Source: a virus
Reading direction: 5' to 3' (one strand)
Virus record (IMG/VR): IMGVR_UViG_3300027836_000031
Span: 1 to 27,947 of that record
DNA: 27,947 nt
The translations under genes and the position numbers were made by a program. Below, in pieces: positions 1,384 through 23,817 of this stretch (positions are counted from its first letter, which is position 1; every line of letters starts with the position of its first letter). The notes below the pieces were generated by a model that was not told where the DNA came from, made no database searches, and saw only the letters and a program-made list of their open reading frames with translations.

Positions 1384-1653
1384 ATGAACGAACGAATTAA
1401 AGAACTTATGGTTGAACTTAAAAAGACGGTTTCAACCCATCGTGGTGATGAAGTATTGATCGGCTATGATGAGTTGGAAAAGTTCGCCGAGTTGATTGTT
1501 CGGGAATGTATCAACCATGAAGAATTGCTGGGTGCCATTGCCCGAGGTTGGTGTAGTGAAAAGAACTCACACAAAACTATGGATCCAGATTTGGCCGTGG
1601 CTATATTTGATGAAGTAGAACGACAGATTAAACAACAGTTTGGAGTTGAATAA
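1384..1653 (+). CDS. Small HFGVEE-family protein, copy 1 (89 aa)
   Basis: First gene behind the promoter at 1329. It starts MNERIKELMVELKK, has LEKFAELIVRECINHEE in the middle and ends IKQQFGVE. These three blocks recur in the genes at 2640, 2825, 3524, 3730 and 3942, while the intervening residues differ. The protein is short, charged and predicted mostly helical, with no enzyme motif. The codons of its FGVE end contain GGAG seven bases before the next ATG (TAATG overlap), so they act as the ribosome binding site of the next gene. Function is unknown. Confidence 0.8.
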   Translation: MNERIKELMVELKKTVSTHRGDEVLIGYDELEKFAELIVRECINHEELLGAIARGWCSEKNSHKTMDPDLAVAIFDEVERQIKQQFGVE

Positions 1654-1814
1654 TGGGATGGCGATATGAAGTTAATGTATGGGATAGCGCAGTCGATGGG
1701 CCTTACTATTGGCTACAGATTTACGCTGGCCCCAGCGTAATCCGAGCCATCTACAACATGTGGTGGGCAAAACGCAACGGTTGGAAATGTATTAAACTGG
1801 AGTATAGACCGTGA
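1653..1814 (+). CDS. Small hypothetical protein (53 aa), tryptophan/tyrosine-rich
   Basis: ATG at 1653 overlaps the preceding stop (TAATG) and is preceded by GGAG at seven bases. It ends at TGA 1812-1814, overlapping the GTG start of the next gene by 4 bp. The product begins MGWRYEVNVWDSAVDG and contains YNMWWAKRNGWKCIKLEY. It has the length and aromatic content of the cassette genes around it. No known domain was recognised. Confidence 0.6.
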   Translation: MGWRYEVNVWDSAVDGPYYWLQIYAGPSVIRAIYNMWWAKRNGWKCIKLEYRP

Positions 1815-2059
1815 GAGTAGAGTTCAATCAAGGTGTGCCTGAAGGTTGTACCGAATGGTTAAACAAGCATGTGGGCAAGGGCAATATGACTGGCCTCGTT
1901 GACAACTACGATTATGCTTGGTTCTATAAGCGTGAGCGTGTTTATCCCAAACCACATGAAGCGTTTGATCCTCGTGATTTGGGACCAAAATATGTGCCCA
2001 CTATCACAGTCAAAGATCCCAAGTTGGCAACTTGGTTTGCGTTGAGGTGGAGTTCATGA
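1811..2059 (+). CDS. Small LRW-motif protein (82 aa)
   Basis: GTG start overlaps the previous stop (GTGA). The product begins MRVEFNQGVPEGCTEWLNKH and ends VKDPKLATWFALRWSS. The end is the recurring D-x-K-x-A-x-x-F-x-L-R-W motif of the minus-strand cassette array at 8900-11672, so this is a member on the opposite strand. The codons TTG AGG TGG AGT of LRWS form a purine-rich GAGGTGGAG directly before the next ATG (ATGA overlap). Function unknown. Confidence 0.75.
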   Translation: MRVEFNQGVPEGCTEWLNKHVGKGNMTGLVDNYDYAWFYKRERVYPKPHEAFDPRDLGPKYVPTITVKDPKLATWFALRWSS

Positions 2060-2412
2060 GTAGTTCGGAAATCAAAGGGCTATTCTTCTTTCCCTCGGGC
2101 CGTTATATGCCAATGGGGCTCAACATCTTACAAAAACTTTGGTGGCGATTCGTGCCCGGAGTTGTGGTCAATGTAAAGTGGCCCAAAGGGTGGGTAGTGC
2201 TTCATGAAGCACCTGATGGATCATGTGTATCCACAGAGTCAGCGGATCCAAACGATCACTATCGTCCTTGGATGGAACAGCATGTTGGTCGACAAGGTTG
2301 GGACTGGAACTGGGGTATGGCAGATAGAGATGCCACTGACAACAGGTTAACCATAAAGATTAGACAGAAATATGCCAAGTATGCTACAATAGCGGCGATA
2401 AGGTGGAGTTGA
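2056..2412 (+). CDS. Small LRW-motif protein (118 aa)
   Basis: The frame is open from an ATG at 2032, but the ATG at 2056 overlaps the preceding TGA as ATGA and has GAGGTGGAG just upstream, so it is preferred. The protein is tryptophan-rich (ILQKLWWRFVPG, VGRQGWDWNWGMADRD) and ends KYAKYATIAAIRWS, a variant of the LRW C-terminal motif. Its last codons (AGG TGG AGT) again supply a GGAG seven bases before the ATG at 2416. No enzymatic domain was recognised. Confidence 0.75.
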   Translation: MSSSEIKGLFFFPSGRYMPMGLNILQKLWWRFVPGVVVNVKWPKGWVVLHEAPDGSCVSTESADPNDHYRPWMEQHVGRQGWDWNWGMADRDATDNRLTIKIRQKYAKYATIAAIRWS

Positions 2413-2415
2413 AAG

Positions 2416-2643
2416 ATGAAAGTTGAGATTTGTCGGCCAGACGGAACACCATACATCACAATAAGTGATGATAGACTCATGGTGAGTATGCAAATACACG
2501 ACTATGATTTTTTAGGTGAAGCCGTCAAGTTCAACTTTGATCGGCGAACTATCCCTGCCTTAATTGATGCACTCAGCAGACTTCAGCGTGGAGAAGATGA
2601 CTCAACCATTCGCACTCACTACTTTAATCAGGATATAGAATGA
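2416..2643 (+). CDS. Small hypothetical protein (75 aa)
   Basis: Starts MKVEICRPDGTPYITISDDR and contains FNFDRRTIPALIDALSRLQRG, which looks like a small beta-sheet N-half followed by a helix. No family was recognised. The ribosome binding site lies in the end of the previous gene; its own stop overlaps the next ATG (ATGA). It belongs to the translationally coupled run from 1384 to 4507. Confidence 0.65.
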   Translation: MKVEICRPDGTPYITISDDRLMVSMQIHDYDFLGEAVKFNFDRRTIPALIDALSRLQRGEDDSTIRTHYFNQDIE

Positions 2644-2828
2644 AAAAGATACCAATGTTAGAACGATTTGCCGCACAGAGTCTTGTGGAGTATGATGGAG
2701 AACTAATCTTCAGCAAGGAAAAGTTCGCCGTGTTGATTGTTAAGGAATGTATTGCGGTTCATGAAGATGACTATGGTGTTGATATCATAGGCAATGTATT
2801 AAAGAAACATTTCGGAGTTGAAAAATGA
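2640..2828 (+). CDS. Small HFGVEE-family protein, copy 2 (62 aa)
   Basis: Shortest member of the family. The N-terminus differs (MKKIPMLERFAAQSLVEYDG), but the middle block KEKFAVLIVKECIAVHEDDYG and the end NVLKKHFGVEK are conserved. At DNA level the middle block (2718-2750) is nearly identical to those of its siblings. It ends in GGAGTTGAAAA next to the ATG of the following copy, so the two are translationally coupled. Function unknown. Confidence 0.75.
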   Translation: MKKIPMLERFAAQSLVEYDGELIFSKEKFAVLIVKECIAVHEDDYGVDIIGNVLKKHFGVEK

Positions 2829-3079
2829 ACGAACGAATTAAAGAACTTGAACAACAAGCAATGGTTTTTCGTGCTGGCATAAAAATGTTAGACACGGAAA
2901 AGTTCGCCGAGTTGATTGTGCAGGAATGTTTGAGTATTGTGGATAGCAATAACCCTCGTCCACCTGGAACTACAATAATGTATAGTTTAGCCAAGGATGA
3001 ATATTTTGACACAGGCTGGCAAGTGGCAGTGGAAACTAAATCCAACCAGATTAAACAACATTTCGGAGTTGAAGAATGA
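2825..3079 (+). CDS. Small HFGVEE-family protein, copy 3 (84 aa)
   Basis: Starts MNERIKELEQQAMVFRAG, middle block TEKFAELIVQECLSIVD, end SNQIKQHFGVEE. Between the middle block and the end is a member-specific segment (SNNPRPPGTTIMYSLAKDEY). Overlaps both neighbours by ATGA. GGAG in the final codons sits seven bases before the next ATG. Function unknown; probably small and soluble, with no membrane segment. Confidence 0.78.
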   Translation: MNERIKELEQQAMVFRAGIKMLDTEKFAELIVQECLSIVDSNNPRPPGTTIMYSLAKDEYFDTGWQVAVETKSNQIKQHFGVEE

Positions 3080-3300
3080 AGGACAGTGATGTAAACCGAG
3101 AGATTGAGGGTGGTGCCACAGACAACTTTTTCTATGGCACAGAGATTGACGGCACAGTGAGGATTGAACGGCACCGTGGTGCTATTGACTCACTGAGATT
3201 GACAGGACTGGAGTTTGATAGAATGATGGGATCTACTCCGTTCTTTAGACCCTGTGCTTATGATGAACAGGGTGGTGAGCAGGGATGGGCTGAACGATGA
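3076..3300 (+). CDS. Small hypothetical protein (74 aa)
   Basis: Begins MKDSDVNREIEGGATDNFFY and contains GTVRIERHRGAIDSLRLTG; it ends EQGGEQGWAER. No family was recognised. Its ribosome binding site is the GGAG inside the last codons of the preceding HFGVEE gene, so an unrelated gene has been placed behind a coupling end. Its stop overlaps the next ATG. Confidence 0.65.
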   Translation: MKDSDVNREIEGGATDNFFYGTEIDGTVRIERHRGAIDSLRLTGLEFDRMMGSTPFFRPCAYDEQGGEQGWAER

Positions 3301-3524
3301 GTACTCAAAGAGGTCTATCAATAGAGAGCATTGCAACAGACCCTGCAAGAATGAGAGCCAGATGTGAAGCATTAGTTGTGGCAATGGTGGGTCAAGACCT
3401 GGCTGACAAGTGGTGGACTGGCTCGAACAAGGCATTTGGTGGTGATACACCGGAACAGATTTATAGTGTGGCACCCAGTGCTGTGTATGCTTATCTAATG
3501 CGATGTGCAGAAGGAGAATGGTGA
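3297..3524 (+). CDS. Small protein resembling the MbcA/ParS/Xre toxin-binding (DUF2384) domain
   Basis: 75 aa. The second half reads LADKWWTGSNKAFGGDTPEQ followed by IYSVAPSAVYAYLMRCAEGEW. This follows the order of the DUF2384 antitoxin C-terminal domain: W, then an N-x-x-(L/F)-G-G-x-T-P turn, a helix, and a closing G at the end. In bacteria that domain binds RES or MbcT type toxins, usually behind an Xre helix-turn-helix, which is absent here. No toxin gene is adjacent. The match is by motif order only, so the assignment is tentative. The next gene's AAGGAG lies in its final codons. Confidence 0.5.
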   Translation: MSTQRGLSIESIATDPARMRARCEALVVAMVGQDLADKWWTGSNKAFGGDTPEQIYSVAPSAVYAYLMRCAEGEW

Positions 3525-3730
3525 TGAACGAACGAATTCAAAATCTCAAAGATAAAATCTGGACAGAAGAATATTGGACTAATCCTAACACGGATAAACT
3601 TTTGCCAGCACAGTTGAACAGGTTCGCCGAGTTGATTGTTAGGGAATGTGGTCAGATAGCATACTCGGAAGAAAACGATTATGGCAATAAGATTAGATTT
3701 ATGATCCTAGAACATTTTGGAGTGGAATGA
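3524..3730 (+). CDS. Small HFGVEE-family protein, copy 4 (68 aa)
   Basis: The ATG at 3524 overlaps the preceding stop and has AAGGAG seven bases upstream; an in-frame ATG at 3503 would lack both features. It starts MNERIQNLKDKIWTEEYW, middle block LNRFAELIVRECGQIAYSEE, end FMILEHFGVE. Its DNA middle block is 3617-3649. The final codons TTT GGA GTG GAA TGA provide GGAG for the next gene. Function unknown. Confidence 0.78.
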   Translation: MNERIQNLKDKIWTEEYWTNPNTDKLLPAQLNRFAELIVRECGQIAYSEENDYGNKIRFMILEHFGVE

Positions 3731-3945
3731 TGGACGAACGAATTAAACAATTTGAGAAACAATGTTGGGACCATCAAGTCAACCACTTAGATACAGAAAA
3801 ATTTGCCCTGTTAATTATTGAGGAATGTATGCGTATGTGTGATGTTGCGGCTATTGGATATGAATCACACGGGCACATGAAAGAAGCCAATGGGTGTTAT
3901 TCGGCCAAAGAATATATTGAAGAACATTTCGGAGTTGAAGAATGA
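3730..3945 (+). CDS. Small HFGVEE-family protein, copy 5 (71 aa)
   Basis: Two adjacent ATGs exist (3727 and 3730). The second is chosen because it gives the family start M-D-E-R-I and restores the seven-base distance from GGAG seen at every other junction of this family. Middle block DTEKFALLIIEECMRMCDVA, end KEYIEEHFGVEE. It is the most diverged copy at DNA level (3796-3828). Function unknown. Confidence 0.75.
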   Translation: MDERIKQFEKQCWDHQVNHLDTEKFALLIIEECMRMCDVAAIGYESHGHMKEANGCYSAKEYIEEHFGVEE

Positions 3946-4202
3946 ACGAACGAATTAAACAACTTGCTGAACAGGTTCAAGTAAACGAGCAGATTCAACG
4001 CCTTGCTGAACAAGCTGGTTGTACAATTGACCGACTGGGTTACGGTGAAGGCAATCTAGAAAAGTTCGCCGAGTTGATTGTGGCTGAATGTTGTGCCCAG
4101 GTTGAACGACAATACAAGTATGCAACAAAGCAAACTAGCACCTGGTCAATGTCGCAAGACGTACAAGACATGTTGAAGAAACATTTCGGAGTTGAAGAAT
4201 GA
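3942..4202 (+). CDS. Small HFGVEE-family protein, copy 6 (86 aa)
   Basis: Starts MNERIKQLAEQVQVNEQIQR and then repeats LAEQ (LAEQVQVNEQIQRLAEQAG), which looks like a small internal duplication of the N-terminal block. Middle block LEKFAELIVAECCAQVERQ, end VQDMLKKHFGVEE. Last member of the run; its GGAG-containing end drives the unrelated gene at 4199. Function unknown. Confidence 0.78.
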   Translation: MNERIKQLAEQVQVNEQIQRLAEQAGCTIDRLGYGEGNLEKFAELIVAECCAQVERQYKYATKQTSTWSMSQDVQDMLKKHFGVEE

Positions 4203-17275: not shown

Positions 17276-18733
17276 TTATAACTTACAACTTTCACAATCT
17301 TCTTCTTCATCAAAGTTAATTGGTGCCAACCCCATTGCTGGAGCATCTTCAGCTTTCATCTTACTGCCTTGCTTATTAATCAAACTGTAGTAGAACGTCT
17401 TAATACCCCAATAGTGAGCTTGCATCAAGTTCTTAGCAATTAATGTAGTTGGTACTTTACGATCTGCAAAGTGTGCTGGATTGTAGAATGTGTTAGTGCT
17501 AATACTTTGATCAGTATAAGCCGCAATAACCGCGGCTGTTTTAATATAGCCTTCGCAGTCTTTCTGCTCCCACATTAACTGATACTTGTTCTTTAACTTA
17601 TGGTACTCTGGAACAACTTGTACAAAGGAACCTGCTTTGCTTTCCTTAACTGAAATAAGCGACATAGGCATTTCAATGCCATTAGTGCTGTTAATAACAA
17701 CACTGGAACTTTCAACAGGTGCAACAGCTCCATTAGTGGCATTTCTTACTCCATACTGTTTCATTTGTTCGCGCAATGCTTCCCAGTCTAGTTCAGGAGC
17801 AAAGCTGGTTAGATCGTTTACACCTTTAGCACGGTGTTCCCACGGGAATGTACCTTGCCCGTAGCGTGTTTGGTCTGAACCTAGACACTTGCCACGTTCT
17901 TTGGCTAGCTCAACACTCATCTCTGTCAAGTAGAAGCTTTGATGTTCTTGCCAAGTCTTAACTTCAGCAAGTGCGTCTTTCTCCCCATACTTCAAACTAC
18001 GCTTGGCGTGCCAGTATGCTAAGTTAGTGATACCAATGCCTAGTGGACGAATCTCATCGTTGCTCAGTTTACTTTGGATACTTAAAAAGTCTTGATAATC
18101 CAAAATGTTGTTAAGACTACGGTGAAGGATACGGCAAGCACGGCGCATGTCTTCAGGGTTGCGGAATGCGCCCCAGTTGATCGAGCCGAGAGTGCAAAGA
18201 GCAATGCGACCGTCAGCATCATCAAGACGCTTAAAAGATTTTGTAGGAAGGAGAATTTCACAGCAAAGGTTACTCTGGTAAATGGTATGATACTCAGGAT
18301 CAAATGGTCCTTGTTTCATAACGTTGTCAATGAACACTAGATAGATGCGTCCTGTATCAGTGCGCTCTTTCAGTATGCCCGACTTGAATACTTCTTCAGC
18401 ACTCATTGTTTTCTTACGTAAACCTGCTTGCTTTTCGTATTTCACGTACAGTTGCTCAAAGCGTTCTGTATTTTGATAAAACGCTTCGTACAAATCTGGT
18501 ACTTCGTTAGGATCAAAGAATGTTATATCTTCTTTGTTTTTAAATCGTCTCCAGAAGAAGGCGGATAAGACCACACCGTAGTCCATGTGTCGGACACGAG
18601 TTTCTTCTGTACCTTGATTGTTCTTAAGCACAATAAGGTCATCAAACTGGTGATGCCAAATTGGATAAAAGACTGTAGCACTTGCATTACGGATACCACC
18701 TTGTGAACATGAACGTAAATCACCAAACCATTT
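17276..18733 (-). CDS. nrdA: Class I ribonucleotide reductase alpha subunit, C-terminal part (frameshifted)
   Basis: Open frame of 485 codons continuing the NrdA sequence one frame away from the N-terminal part. Visible: GDLRSCSQGG, LIVLKNNQGTEETRVRHMDY, then YQSNLCCEILLP (active-site Asn, thiyl Cys, Glu), GRIALCTLGSINWG (redox Cys partner), SSSVVINSTNGIEMPMS, TFYYSLINKQG (radical-transfer Tyr pair), and the C-terminal shuttle EDCESCKL. All catalytic residues of this half are intact. The only non-ATG start is GTG at 18631 without a ribosome binding site, and it would drop the conserved CSQGG part. So the piece makes sense only as a continuation of 18720-19598, about 773 aa in total (E. coli NrdA 761). 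Confidence 0.88.
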   Translation of the reverse strand, partial: KWFGDLRSCSQGGIRNASATVFYPIWHHQFDDLIVLKNNQGTEETRVRHMDYGVVLSAFFWRRFKNKEDITFFDPNEVPDLYEAFYQNTERFEQLYVKYEKQAGLRKKTMSAEEVFKSGILKERTDTGRIYLVFIDNVMKQGPFDPEYHTIYQSNLCCEILLPTKSFKRLDDADGRIALCTLGSINWGAFRNPEDMRRACRILHRSLNNILDYQDFLSIQSKLSNDEIRPLGIGITNLAYWHAKRSLKYGEKDALAEVKTWQEHQSFYLTEMSVELAKERGKCLGSDQTRYGQGTFPWEHRAKGVNDLTSFAPELDWEALREQMKQYGVRNATNGAVAPVESSSVVINSTNGIEMPMSLISVKESKAGSFVQVVPEYHKLKNKYQLMWEQKDCEGYIKTAAVIAAYTDQSISTNTFYNPAHFADRKVPTTLIAKNLMQAHYWGIKTFYYSLINKQGSKMKAEDAPAMGLAPINFDEEEDCESCKL

Positions 18734-19598
18734 TTAAGAACGGAATCATACCAGTGTGCATAATCTCACCACCACGGATGGGAGCACCTAATGGACGTAA
18801 GCGTCCAATTTCTAATCCAATGCCAGCACGTTTGCTAGCATACTTGGCCATCATTTCCCCAGAAGCAAATATGCTATCCAGATCGTCGTCACTGCGGATA
18901 AGCACACAACTAGAAAACTGTTTAGTAGGAGTGCCAAGCCCAGCCAGCACAGGTGTAGCAAGAGTAAACAAGCCATCGCCTGCCGCGTTGTAATATTCTT
19001 TGATGTAACGCATTCTAGCCGAATTAGGTTCTTCTTTATGAAAAACTGTAGCGGCTGCAACCATGTATCTAACTTGTGGAGTTTCATAAATTTCCTTAGT
19101 GGCACGATTACGAACAAGATACTTTTCAATTAACTGTTCAATGGCTGCGTAAGAATACTGCTCGTCTTTTTCGTGGTCGATGAATTCATTCATCTTATTC
19201 CAGTCATCTTCACTATACCAATTTAATAGTTCAGCTGTATAAAGACCCGTTGCTACATTCTTTTTAACAATTTCATAAAGACTAGGCACTTCATATGAAC
19301 CATATACATCCTTACGTAACATTGACAAACGTTGTTTGCCTGCTACGTATTGATAGTTAGTGTGTCCAACATCTGGGTTTTGTTCTACATCAATTAAATC
19401 AACAATAGCTCGTAGAGTAATGCCGTCGATTTCTTTTGTTGTAATGCCGTCGTAAAAATGAAGCTGAGCTTTAATTTCAATCATTGACTGGCTTACGTCT
19501 GCTATGCCGCTACAGATTTTTGCAATCTGAGCTTGCCACTTTTCAATAGTGAGTGACTCTTTTCTTCCGCTTCTTTTAATTACTGTAATTTTATTCAT
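18720..19598 (-). CDS. nrdA: Class I ribonucleotide reductase alpha subunit, N-terminal part (frameshifted)
   Basis: 292 aa. Starts MNKITVIKRSGRKESLTIEK, an intact ATP-cone for allosteric control, followed by the R1 N-terminal domain: FTLATPVLAGLGTPTKQFSS then CVLIRSDDDLDSI (first redox Cys) and KRAGIGLEIGRLRPLGAPIR. The frame ends ...GMIPFLKMVW and a TGA at 18720-18722. The next frame reads KWFGDLRSCSQGG over the same bases. The shift falls at a run of five A on the minus strand (18731-18735). Removing one A or adding two would restore one frame. Sequencing/assembly error, real mutation and a split gene are all possible. Confidence 0.9.
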   Translation of the reverse strand: MNKITVIKRSGRKESLTIEKWQAQIAKICSGIADVSQSMIEIKAQLHFYDGITTKEIDGITLRAIVDLIDVEQNPDVGHTNYQYVAGKQRLSMLRKDVYGSYEVPSLYEIVKKNVATGLYTAELLNWYSEDDWNKMNEFIDHEKDEQYSYAAIEQLIEKYLVRNRATKEIYETPQVRYMVAAATVFHKEEPNSARMRYIKEYYNAAGDGLFTLATPVLAGLGTPTKQFSSCVLIRSDDDLDSIFASGEMMAKYASKRAGIGLEIGRLRPLGAPIRGGEIMHTGMIPFLKMVW

Positions 19599-21703: not shown

Positions 21704-21713
21704 GATATTTATC
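21704..21713 (-). promoter_or_regulatory. T4-late-like promoter box for the tail spike
   Basis: Minus strand GATAAATATC, close to TATAAATA, 18 bases upstream of the ATG at 21685. It overlaps the stop of the exonuclease gene (TGA TAA ATA). Confidence 0.5.
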
Positions 21714-22428
21714 AGTTCATTCGGTAGTATTCTTCCACTCGCTTGCACCAGCGTTCTGTCCAGTAGTCAAAGTCTTCTGGTTTAAGAATAAACTCTTGAT
21801 ACTGCGGATCTCCCCAGACTCCTGGGCTAATTTCCGGGGGTTTAACGCACATTAGAATAACACCTTTGCGTATGTTAGTGCCGTGAACTTCATTATGTGC
21901 CATTGCGTATGCAGTAAGCTGAATGAAGTAGTCGTCAATATATTCTAACTTTTTAGGCTTATTTGTTTGTTTATAATCTAGTATGCTTTCGTCACCGTCA
22001 TGCACACCTACACAGTCAGTAGTTCCAGCATATAGCTCTGGAAAGTAAAGGGGAACTTCACTGCCCCACACTTCTGTAATTTTACCAAACCCTTCTTGTA
22101 TTACTTTCTTAGCCATAACAAGGCTTTGATTAGCATACGGGTTAGTAACTGTTTCTTTTAGTGTTTCACCCTTGACATAGTCTTCGAGATACTTGTGCAT
22201 ACGTGTTCCGCGATTGGCGGCTTCTGTAGTAATCTCTGTGGCCTTCTTTTCGCCCACTGCTTTTCTCCAGTTGGCTAACGCAATACGTGATTCAGCAGGC
22301 TTAGTCTTGTCCAAAATGGTTGTAACACTTGGAACTTTGTGACCTTCAGGTGTTGCGTATAAACGCTTACCTGAAGACTCGTCACGGGTTAATTTGGAAT
22401 ATTGGAACTTTTCGATTAATAGAGTCAT
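21712..22428 (-). CDS. PD-(D/E)XK exonuclease (MGME1/RecB-Cas4-like)
   Basis: 238 aa. Motifs in order: NRGTRMHKYLEDYVKG (G-x-x-x-H-x-x-x-E), SEVPLYFPELYAGTTDCVGV with the metal-binding Asp, DESILDYKQTNKPKK (the D-Y-K part of the PD-(D/E)XK site), and YIDDYFIQLTAYAMAHN with the QxxxY motif. This order fits the mitochondrial genome maintenance exonuclease 1 and RecB/Cas4 nuclease group found in many marine myoviruses. It likely trims single-stranded DNA ends in replication or recombination. A perfect sigma70 promoter places the transcript start at the ATG. Confidence 0.88.
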   Translation of the reverse strand: MTLLIEKFQYSKLTRDESSGKRLYATPEGHKVPSVTTILDKTKPAESRIALANWRKAVGEKKATEITTEAANRGTRMHKYLEDYVKGETLKETVTNPYANQSLVMAKKVIQEGFGKITEVWGSEVPLYFPELYAGTTDCVGVHDGDESILDYKQTNKPKKLEYIDDYFIQLTAYAMAHNEVHGTNIRKGVILMCVKPPEISPGVWGDPQYQEFILKPEDFDYWTERWCKRVEEYYRMN

Positions 22429-22435
22429 AGCATGT

Positions 22436-22464
22436 ATTATACAACAACTCTACTAACATGTCAA
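22436..22464 (-). promoter_or_regulatory. Perfect sigma70-type promoter of the exonuclease gene
   Basis: Minus strand TTGACA (22459-22464), 17-bp spacer, TATAAT (22436-22441). Seven bases (ACATGCT) lie between TATAAT and the ATG at 22428, so a leaderless mRNA is expected. The TGA of TTGACA is also the stop of the upstream ORF. Confidence 0.85.
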
Positions 22465-22781
22465 CCTAATTCTTTGCTGGCTGCTCGTTTTGCCATTGCC
22501 TGTATACGACTTGTTTTAGGTTCGCCTTTTGGCTGCTCGTTTTCTTTTTCGTGGGTCTTAATAACAACACCATTACCGTCAAAGCTCTTTACTAGATTTC
22601 TAAGAATTTGTTGGTCCGGTGACTTGCCTTCTTCCGCATCCCATAGTGCTGCAAATCGATCATAGTCGATTGCTGGAGATCCGTTGTCACGAGTAAGACT
22701 ATTCAATGCCCTGTATGTAAGGGCATTGGTTTCATCTTTAAAATTTGAGTTTGATTGAATACTTTGAAGAGCACTGACCAA
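22461..22781 (-). CDS. Downstream ORF, probably expressed as a -1 frameshift extension
   Basis: 106 aa from a TTG at 22781: MVSALQSIQSNSNFKDETNA, then IDYDRFAALWDAEEG and ILRNLVKSFDGNGVVIKTHE, ending in a basic tail (TSRIQAMAKRAASKELG). There is no ATG or GTG at the 5' end; the only purine stretch (GAAGG) is 10 bases before the TTG and inside a stem-loop. The frame is open further upstream through KKKVIEGIDPL into the end of the gene at 22799-23785, at a dnaX-type slippery site. A fusion of about 441 aa is therefore likely; ATT or TTG initiation is the alternative. Family not recognised. Confidence 0.65.
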   Translation of the reverse strand: MVSALQSIQSNSNFKDETNALTYRALNSLTRDNGSPAIDYDRFAALWDAEEGKSPDQQILRNLVKSFDGNGVVIKTHEKENEQPKGEPKTSRIQAMAKRAASKELG

Positions 22782-22811
22782 CGGGTCAATGCCTTCAATT
22801 ACTTTTTTTTT
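22766..22811 (-). promoter_or_regulatory. Candidate programmed -1 ribosomal frameshift signal
   Basis: Minus strand: a run of nine A then G, ending in the heptamer A AAA AAG (22808-22802) just before the TAA stop (22801-22799). Five bases after the heptamer a stem-loop begins: GAAG (22796-22793) with CTTC (22769-22766), and CATTGACC (22791-22784) with GGTCAGTG (22779-22772) around a CGTT loop. A -1 slip reads directly into the 22461 ORF. Confidence 0.65.
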
Positions 22812-23785
22812 GATCCGGCAAGCATGATACCTAGCTTGCGGCTATAGTCAACGCTTTCACGCTTTTCACGCCCAGCTGCGCCGCCGGCTGCTGGCTCTTC
22901 GATGCCTAAGTCAGCACTCATGTCGCTACCCATGTCTGCCATTTCGCCTTCTGCTCCACCTGCTGCTGCTACATCGCCAGGGGCTGCACCCATTGTTGGA
23001 GCTTCACCGCCTGATACAATTGCCAATGCGCCTGATAGTCCTTGACGGCTTGTTTCTAGTGCTGTGTAAATTGCTTCTAATGCTGGTTTGACAGCATCGC
23101 TATATTGTTGCGACACATCACTTCCTGAAGTTTCTCTTATAGAGTCTAATAGTTCTAGTAAGGATTCTGCTTTCATGGTAGCTACGTCTTCTAGCCATCC
23201 AGTAATACGATCTACCATGTCCTTAGTTGCCATGATAATAGCTGCTTTGTCTTCTTCGCCTTCGTGTAGAATATGATACACTTGTGATTCTGTTAGTTCG
23301 TAACGAATAGTTAATTCATTGCCTAGTTCTTCTTTGTCTGATTCACCTAGGTGCATTCTTTTGATTGCGCTTTCAATCCAGCTGTTAGGAACTGACATCT
23401 CTTTAGCACGACCGATCATGCCTGCATAGCGTGTTAGGCTTTCTGGGGTTTTCTTTTTCATTTTCTTTTTATCCTGTTCTTCGTGGTCATCACATTTGCA
23501 AGGGTCACAATGGCAGTCACTGCATTTACCCTCTTCACGTTCCATGATCTCTTGGTTAATCACATCTAGGAACATGCGAGTTTTTTGGTAATCGTGACTT
23601 TCATGGACAGAATCAAAACTCTCAGATAGTTCAAATTGACTGATCTTTGTGCGTAGTTTGTTACGTGCGTCTTCTAATTGCACGTCACTAAAGTTCTCTA
23701 GTTGTAGTTTGTAACCAAACTTTGCGGCTGCATTTTCGTTTAGTTGCTTACTAGTAACTGGCTTTGATAATTCTCTGATCTGCAT
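22799..23785 (-). CDS. Conserved myovirus virion/scaffold-type protein (328 aa)
   Basis: Starts MQIRELSKPVTSKQLNENAA, then FSDVQLEDARNKLRTKISQF. A cysteine cluster at about residues 88-98 (GKCSDCHCDPCKCDD, C-x2-C-x-C-x2-C-x-C) looks like an inserted metal-binding loop before a lysine-rich stretch (KKKMKKKTPESL). The centre AAIIMATKDMVDRITGWLED and TMKAESLLELLDSIRETSG is long helix; the C-part is Ala/Gly-rich (GAAPGDVAAAGGAEGEM) and ends RKLGIMLAGSKKK. The order helix, acidic low-complexity, basic end suggests a scaffold or head component; the exact role is not known. The stop sits on a slippery A run. Ribosome binding site AGGA, late box upstream. Confidence 0.75.
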   Translation of the reverse strand: MQIRELSKPVTSKQLNENAAAKFGYKLQLENFSDVQLEDARNKLRTKISQFELSESFDSVHESHDYQKTRMFLDVINQEIMEREEGKCSDCHCDPCKCDDHEEQDKKKMKKKTPESLTRYAGMIGRAKEMSVPNSWIESAIKRMHLGESDKEELGNELTIRYELTESQVYHILHEGEEDKAAIIMATKDMVDRITGWLEDVATMKAESLLELLDSIRETSGSDVSQQYSDAVKPALEAIYTALETSRQGLSGALAIVSGGEAPTMGAAPGDVAAAGGAEGEMADMGSDMSADLGIEEPAAGGAAGREKRESVDYSRKLGIMLAGSKKK

Positions 23786-23806: not shown

Positions 23807-23817
23807 TATATTTATGC
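23807..23817 (-). promoter_or_regulatory. T4-late-like box for the 23785 gene
   Basis: Minus strand GCATAAATATA, 22 bases upstream of the ATG, overlapping the stop of the upstream gene (GCA TAA). Confidence 0.5.

Follow-up and report, generated by a model that had tools for sequence, protein, structure and literature searches.

The window, i.e., the whole stretch of 27,947 nucleotides analyzed here (IMG/VR virus record IMGVR_UViG_3300027836_000031), carries on its minus strand a gene for a 328-aa protein whose 3' end reads GGA TCA AAA AAA AAG TAA, the same codons, with their A AAA AAG, that an earlier note on this DNA had described. The run is A9, two or more residues longer than A AAA AAG requires, a point that bears on the mechanism, and is followed by a G at 22802. 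The -1 frame is open from GTA (22802) to the codon at 22466-22464, with a stop at 22463-22461 (minus strand), giving 113 codons and predicted products of 328 aa in the 0 frame and 441 aa upon fusion into the -1 frame; by these coordinates the earlier estimate of a fusion of about 441 aa stands. The absence of an ATG or GTG start from this second ORF, likewise claimed before, was also borne out: the first such codon occurs only at about codon 102-103, and the sole early start codon in the frame is a TTG at 22781, which lies inside the downstream hairpin and past the conserved D-P residues. That hairpin had been described as an 8-bp stem with a CGTT loop and a 4-bp outer stem, beginning five bases on; it is indeed present, but really has 15 bp and starts 3 nt after the AAG. 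It reads TTGAAG GCATTGACC / CGTT / GGTCAGTGC T CTTCAA, the 5' arm through the loop being TTGAAGGCATTGACC CGTT, followed by GGTCAGTGC T CTTCAA. A scan of the window returned no Rfam match and no tRNA.

Table 1. Features of the candidate frameshift site and its gene neighborhood (positions in the window)
Feature	Position	Strand	Remarks
Downstream neighbor, PD-(D/E)XK exonuclease	21712..22428	-	Same neighbor in 121Q, RaK2, GAP32, XbC2 and SCTP-2
-1 frame extension, 113 codons + stop	22461..22802	-	Small domain, winged-helix-like predicted fold; homologous to stand-alone outgroup genes by sequence comparison
Hairpin, 15 bp with one bulged T, CGTT loop, 3-nt spacer after AAG	22764..22798	-	-20.9 kcal/mol; z = -4.1 vs synonymous recodings; counterparts in relatives covary
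0-frame stop TAA	22799..22801	-	Immediately 3' of the slippery stretch
0-frame gene, 328 aa	22799..23785	-	Probable virion structural protein (phrog_14154 match, gene order)
In-frame heptamer A AAA AAG	22808-22802	-	
In-frame heptamer A AAA AAA	22811-22805	-	
A9 run, slippery stretch (A9G with the next base)	22803..22811	-	A9 or A10 in 58/58 distinct clade-1 loci, also in clade 2
Upstream neighbor, 84 aa	24269..24523	-	Occupies the place of 121Q gp25; matches phrog_16215 (virion structural protein) weakly

The 328-aa protein is helical: a long coiled coil spans residues 177-257, residues 261-308 form an acidic, disordered linker, and the tail, GREKRESVDYSRKLG...SKKK, is conserved. Its AlphaFold2 model (mean pLDDT 69) shows long helices, the disordered linker and a C-terminal helix before the SKKK. 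An hmmscan search matches residues 169-262 to phrog_14154, a virion structural protein family (E 9.5e-08), and direct tblastn similarity to the Asteriusvirus/RaK2-type gp27 family reaches only E 0.7. We consider the product probably to be a virion structural protein, on the strength of the profile match and the gene order. Further, the element GAC TCT ATA AGA in the middle of the gene (23135-23146, minus strand) shows strong synonymous conservation in both clades of relatives defined below, second only to the A-run, and is perhaps a promoter or some other DNA or RNA signal. About 25 nt upstream of the gene lies CATAAATA (23809-23816, minus strand), with GTATAAATA in the relative L001, both of which we take to resemble the T4 late promoter. 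Elsewhere in the window, positions 1384-4202 of the plus strand hold small ORFs, related to one another and lying in a row (MNERIKEL...FAELIVRECI...IKQHFGVE), that appear to be a family expanded in tandem.

With the 328-aa protein as query, 80 loci were recovered from viral contigs, most of them 52-74% identical to it, and merging of identical copies left 58 distinct loci, the window included (clade 1). A further search, seeded with a more distant member, yielded 18 distinct loci, which together with the intermediate L323 make up the 19 loci of clade 2; between the two clades, the first protein is about 42-45% identical. Every clade-1 locus has TCA or CCA, then A9G (49 loci), A10 (5) or A9C (4), and then TAA, and clade 2 is arranged likewise, with A10, A9C and a TAG stop among its variants. 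The A9 or A10 run, the stop directly after it and the -1 ORF are thus found in 77/77 distinct loci of the two clades, the ORF comprising 100-122 codons in 58/58 and 19/19 of them, respectively, and one of the heptamers A AAA AAG, A AAA AAA or A AAA AAC lies in phase at all of them. Loci met in further searches match the pattern. Locus L078 ran off its contig end, and L081, entertained as an exception, has its frame break elsewhere in the assembled gene, its own site being A9G TAA like the others. The A that closes the preceding Ser or Pro codon never changed, and the base after the run changed at least 10 times on the tree (7 times in the case of A9C and 3 times in that of A10). A collection of bacterial genomes contained no relatives, and hence provided no hint as to the host.

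The A-run at this site is not there by chance. Within 608,250 bases (about 608 kb) of the same 58 loci, A or T runs of at least nine residues occur nowhere else; runs of eight number 23. A9 runs are scarce in the 1.22 Mb of six large related records, with 4 of the 6 places besides the present site being the second such site discussed below; in the clade-2 records they are somewhat commoner. As a control, we considered 22 other gene pairs from the same loci with an open -1 frame past the stop: no A9 run was present among the 20 of these 22 that were listed, many of which are ordinary ATGA overlaps. This conservation also bears on the exceedingly improbable explanation that the two ORFs are a single gene broken by a homopolymer sequencing or assembly error. 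The same contig does display an apparent one-base frame break in an nrdA-like gene near 18,710; nevertheless, the break at the A-run recurs across many assemblies, in 77 distinct loci, always with the stop immediately behind the run; the A9C and A10 variants preserve the phase, and the hairpin is under selection. Assembly error at the A-run was rejected on the basis of conservation. The nrdA-like gene itself (about 18540-18860, minus strand) is split between two frames at that point, probably by a one-base sequencing or assembly error.

Additionally, the RNA structure 3' of the run is under selection. When the first 25 codons of the -1 ORF were recoded synonymously in clade 1, the native structure was stronger in 48/58 loci (p < 0.05, mean z -3.1), and with 20 codons recoded in clade 2 it was stronger in 19/19 (mean z -4.5). 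A scan along the gene detected the structure signal only in windows starting 3-15 nt past the site (mean z -4.8 and -4.7), with values near zero elsewhere. One subclade, which on an early impression lacked the hairpin, proved to have a weaker one (mean z -2.3). In both clades, the double-sided changes and the covariation score exceed those of all 500 shuffles (0/500), which leave relatedness in place, and slid controls are also much lower in paired cells and covariation score; in clade 2, 96% of the alignment cells in the hairpin are paired. Codon usage is likewise skewed, AGG accounting for 40/60 Arg codons in the stem region as opposed to 6/1179 elsewhere. The hairpin varies by lineage in both sequence and position, with different lineages having unrelated sequences. 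Its spacer from the run is 2-6 nt in clade 2, 1-31 nt and mostly 10-16 nt in clade 1, and 3 nt by full fold in the window; for -1 signals in general the usual spacer is 5-9 nt, with longer examples known (PMC5009743).

The earlier note had proposed an alignment of relatives as a check on its reading, and the retention of the run at every distinct locus, along with covarying stem changes in both clades, is what such an alignment displays. The conservation, the selection on the hairpin and the covariation strongly support its central claim, a programmed shift to the -1 frame with a longer minor product. A -1 fusion is almost certainly made, be it by ribosomal frameshifting or by transcriptional slippage, and we put the probability that ribosomal -1 frameshifting is the main route at roughly 70%. 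Ribosomal frameshifting is the best mechanism on account of the hairpin: lying 3' of the run, it would still be untranscribed while RNA polymerase is on the run, and hence selection on it points to ribosomes. Under this mechanism, most ribosomes would halt at the TAA and release the 328-aa protein, while some would slip back by one base on AAA-AAA-AAG, with tRNA-Lys re-pairing; the nearby 3' hairpin would assist, as would, probably, a stop codon that is decoded slowly. The shifted ribosomes would continue for 113 codons to produce the 441-aa form with its extra C-terminal domain. We infer both that the shift takes place on the ribosome and how often it does so, and likewise that the two forms enter the virion in a fixed ratio.

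The more specific claim, that this is a ribosomal signal of the dnaX type, fares less evenly. It is made likely by the hairpin, and the spacers of clade 2 and of the window, being near the usual range, were counted in favor of ribosomes; it is nonetheless unproven, as the invariant element is not A AAA AAG but A9 or A10, a run on which transcription could slip as well. Several features argue against a plain dnaX-type signal, namely the length of the run, the invariant A closing the Ser or Pro codon, which A AAA AAG does not need, the changes in the next base, the clade-1 spacing, mostly outside the usual range, and the subclade with weak hairpins. In E. coli, A_AAA_AAG is much the more shift-prone heptamer (PMC5009743). 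The overlapping heptamer A AAA AAA at TCA-AAA-AAA could account ribosomally for the A9 length, the invariant A and the next-base changes.

The same features invite the view that transcriptional slippage is the main route, which we regard as unlikely though the strongest competitor to ribosomal frameshifting. Here RNA polymerase would stutter on the A9-A10 stretch, and mRNAs with one extra A would join the two ORFs and yield the fusion by normal translation, the hairpin having another role or acting jointly. This would fit a run of at least nine A residues in every distinct locus, whatever the next base (G, A or C), and the lack of any other A or T run of that length in 608 kb of the same loci. 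Many bacterial RNA polymerases are prone to slip on runs of nine, selection against slippage becomes visible at that length in many bacterial genomes, and the A9 run of Thermus dnaX slips such that half of the product is altered (PMC1088944). A multisubunit RNA polymerase (PF00562) was not found in the six large related records, and hence a host-type enzyme is likely. However, transcriptional slippage leaves unexplained a strong, covarying hairpin located only just 3' of the run, and in some relatives the second site has no more than A8G. Joint action of ribosomal and transcriptional slippage is quite possible.

The -1 ORF encodes a protein conserved from its first codons (E3, P7 and L12 are invariant in 19 members), and in 46/58 loci no ATG, GTG or TTG occurs between the upstream stop and the conserved motif. 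It is very improbable that ribosomes instead translate this second ORF on its own, re-initiating at the stop or close to it, from the TAATG of some members or from a non-AUG start such as ATT. In ten of the 77 distinct loci the second -1 codon is indeed ATG and overlaps the stop (TAATG), and the second gene has its own ATG in the outgroup loci L330-L333 and in isolates. Against this, the second -1 codon varies (ATT, AAT, ATA, ACT, ATC, AGT, ACG, ACA, GTA), no Shine-Dalgarno-like sequence precedes it, and the invariant A-run would be left without explanation.

AlphaFold2 predicts the extension to be a compact domain of the winged-helix type (mean pLDDT 77, about 90 over residues 11-80). Structural matches of the model are weak, the best having a Z of 4.5, with PhoB/NsrR-type domains among the tied ones. 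Pfam contains no family for the extension, only stray single-member matches, and used alone as a query it finds one relative in the viral contigs and none among phage isolates. Going by the models, a fraction of the copies would, through the fusion, carry a small domain at the end of a flexible tail, much as the T7 gene 10B extension is borne by a fraction of the capsid protein.

Cultured phages and more distant relatives illuminate the origin of this arrangement. In E. coli phage 121Q, gp27 (210 aa) is followed by gp28 (111 aa) and the exonuclease gp29, and nrdA and nrdB lie farther along; both gp27 and gp28 carry the annotation of structural protein, and the second of them starts at an ATG of its own, preceded by AAGGA. 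PBECO4, GAP32 and RaK2 have the same arrangement, with both genes annotated "virion structural protein", and XbC2, XaC1, Munch and SCTP-2 share the gene order of 121Q. The isolates 121Q, RaK2 and GAP32 do not use the A-run, and their second gene stands alone. The suggestion in the earlier note that two structural genes are joined thus agrees with gene order and annotation in isolates, though this is known from them and not from the window phage itself. The viral outgroup loci L330-L333, with 37-43% identity to a clade-2 query in the first protein, likewise lack the A-run and have the ATG of ORF2 right after the stop (TAATATG or TGATATG). Their ORF2 matches the extension of a clade-2 member by BLASTP (E 3e-11) and the extension profile (E 8.8e-12); the same pairwise BLASTP test returned no match with the window's own extension. 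Comparison to gp28 by hhalign gave E 4.6e-4 (probability 33%) for the extension and E 1.3e-4 (probability 53%) for the outgroup ORF2, both weak links that rest partly on gene order. By profile and pairwise comparison, then, the extension is homologous to the stand-alone outgroup gene. Since the outgroups and isolates without the A-run have a separate second gene, parsimony suggests that the two genes were originally separate and that the frameshift fusion arose afterwards, in which case the extension would be a former downstream gene that lost its own start. The earlier note had held relatives with a normal ATG and no A-run to count against the signal; such relatives occur in the outgroups only, where they mark the ancestral arrangement and leave the signal intact.

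A second conserved A-run was observed outside the window, in L340-L343 and L346-L360, near the 3' end of a gene of about 355-460 codons encoding a membrane and coiled-coil protein; in the four large records compared it lies about 13-14 kb downstream of the first. It mostly reads TCA AAA AAA AAG, after which the 0 frame continues for 20 codons and the -1 frame holds a conserved ORF about 112 codons long. Its variants are A8G (L358, L359), A10 (L354), A11 (L349) and A10G (L355), the last of which places both ORFs in one frame and is either a natural variant or a homopolymer error. This looks like a further programmed frameshift of the same type.

Among known systems, E. coli dnaX is alike in decoding A AAA AAG as Lys-Lys, in the hairpin a few bases 3' of it and in the shift to -1. 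In dnaX, however, the shift soon meets a stop and results in a shorter product, whereas here a stop is bypassed and the product is longer; moreover, the present run comprises A9-A10, and an upstream Shine-Dalgarno-like stimulator was not seen. T7/T3 gene 10 (10A/10B) and the Listeria phage capsid also shift at the end of a structural gene to produce a minor C-terminally extended product, but they differ in slippery site and protein family, and the extension here is homologous to a stand-alone gene of relatives. As in lambda G/GT, a -1 frameshift near the end of a morphogenesis gene would join the next ORF; unlike it, the present locus bears no sign of a tail-assembly chaperone, matches a jumbo-phage virion structural protein and adjoins an exonuclease gene. 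An A9 slippery stretch is shared with IS elements and Thermus thermophilus dnaX, in which the slippage is transcriptional; here an added conserved 3' hairpin suggests ribosomes. Finally, the pairs 121Q gp27/gp28, RaK2 gp400/gp399 and GAP32_293/294 have the same order of first protein, second protein of about 111 aa and exonuclease, both proteins being annotated as virion structural proteins; they differ in being separate, unfused genes with an ATG for the second (preceded by AAGGA in 121Q). The device is of a known type, but in a new gene, in a large group of uncultured jumbo phages; in the open-access literature, subscription papers aside, we found no report of the present frameshift.

We tentatively consider a two-level shift, wherein the A9 run slips RNA polymerase and, in conjunction with the hairpin, ribosomes, both leading to the same -1 fusion, with the A-run device deployed in at least two genes of this phage group and a separate gene turned into a frameshift-dependent extension. 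The natural variants (a run followed by G, A or C, and a hairpin 1-31 nt away) could serve to separate the ribosomal and transcriptional shares. In practical terms, gene-prediction programs applied to these phages split the second product or overlook it. More generally, the programmed frameshifts of the tail chaperone and major capsid protein families are joined here by a widely conserved one in another gene family, and the locus shows a possible route from two adjacent genes to a frameshift fusion.
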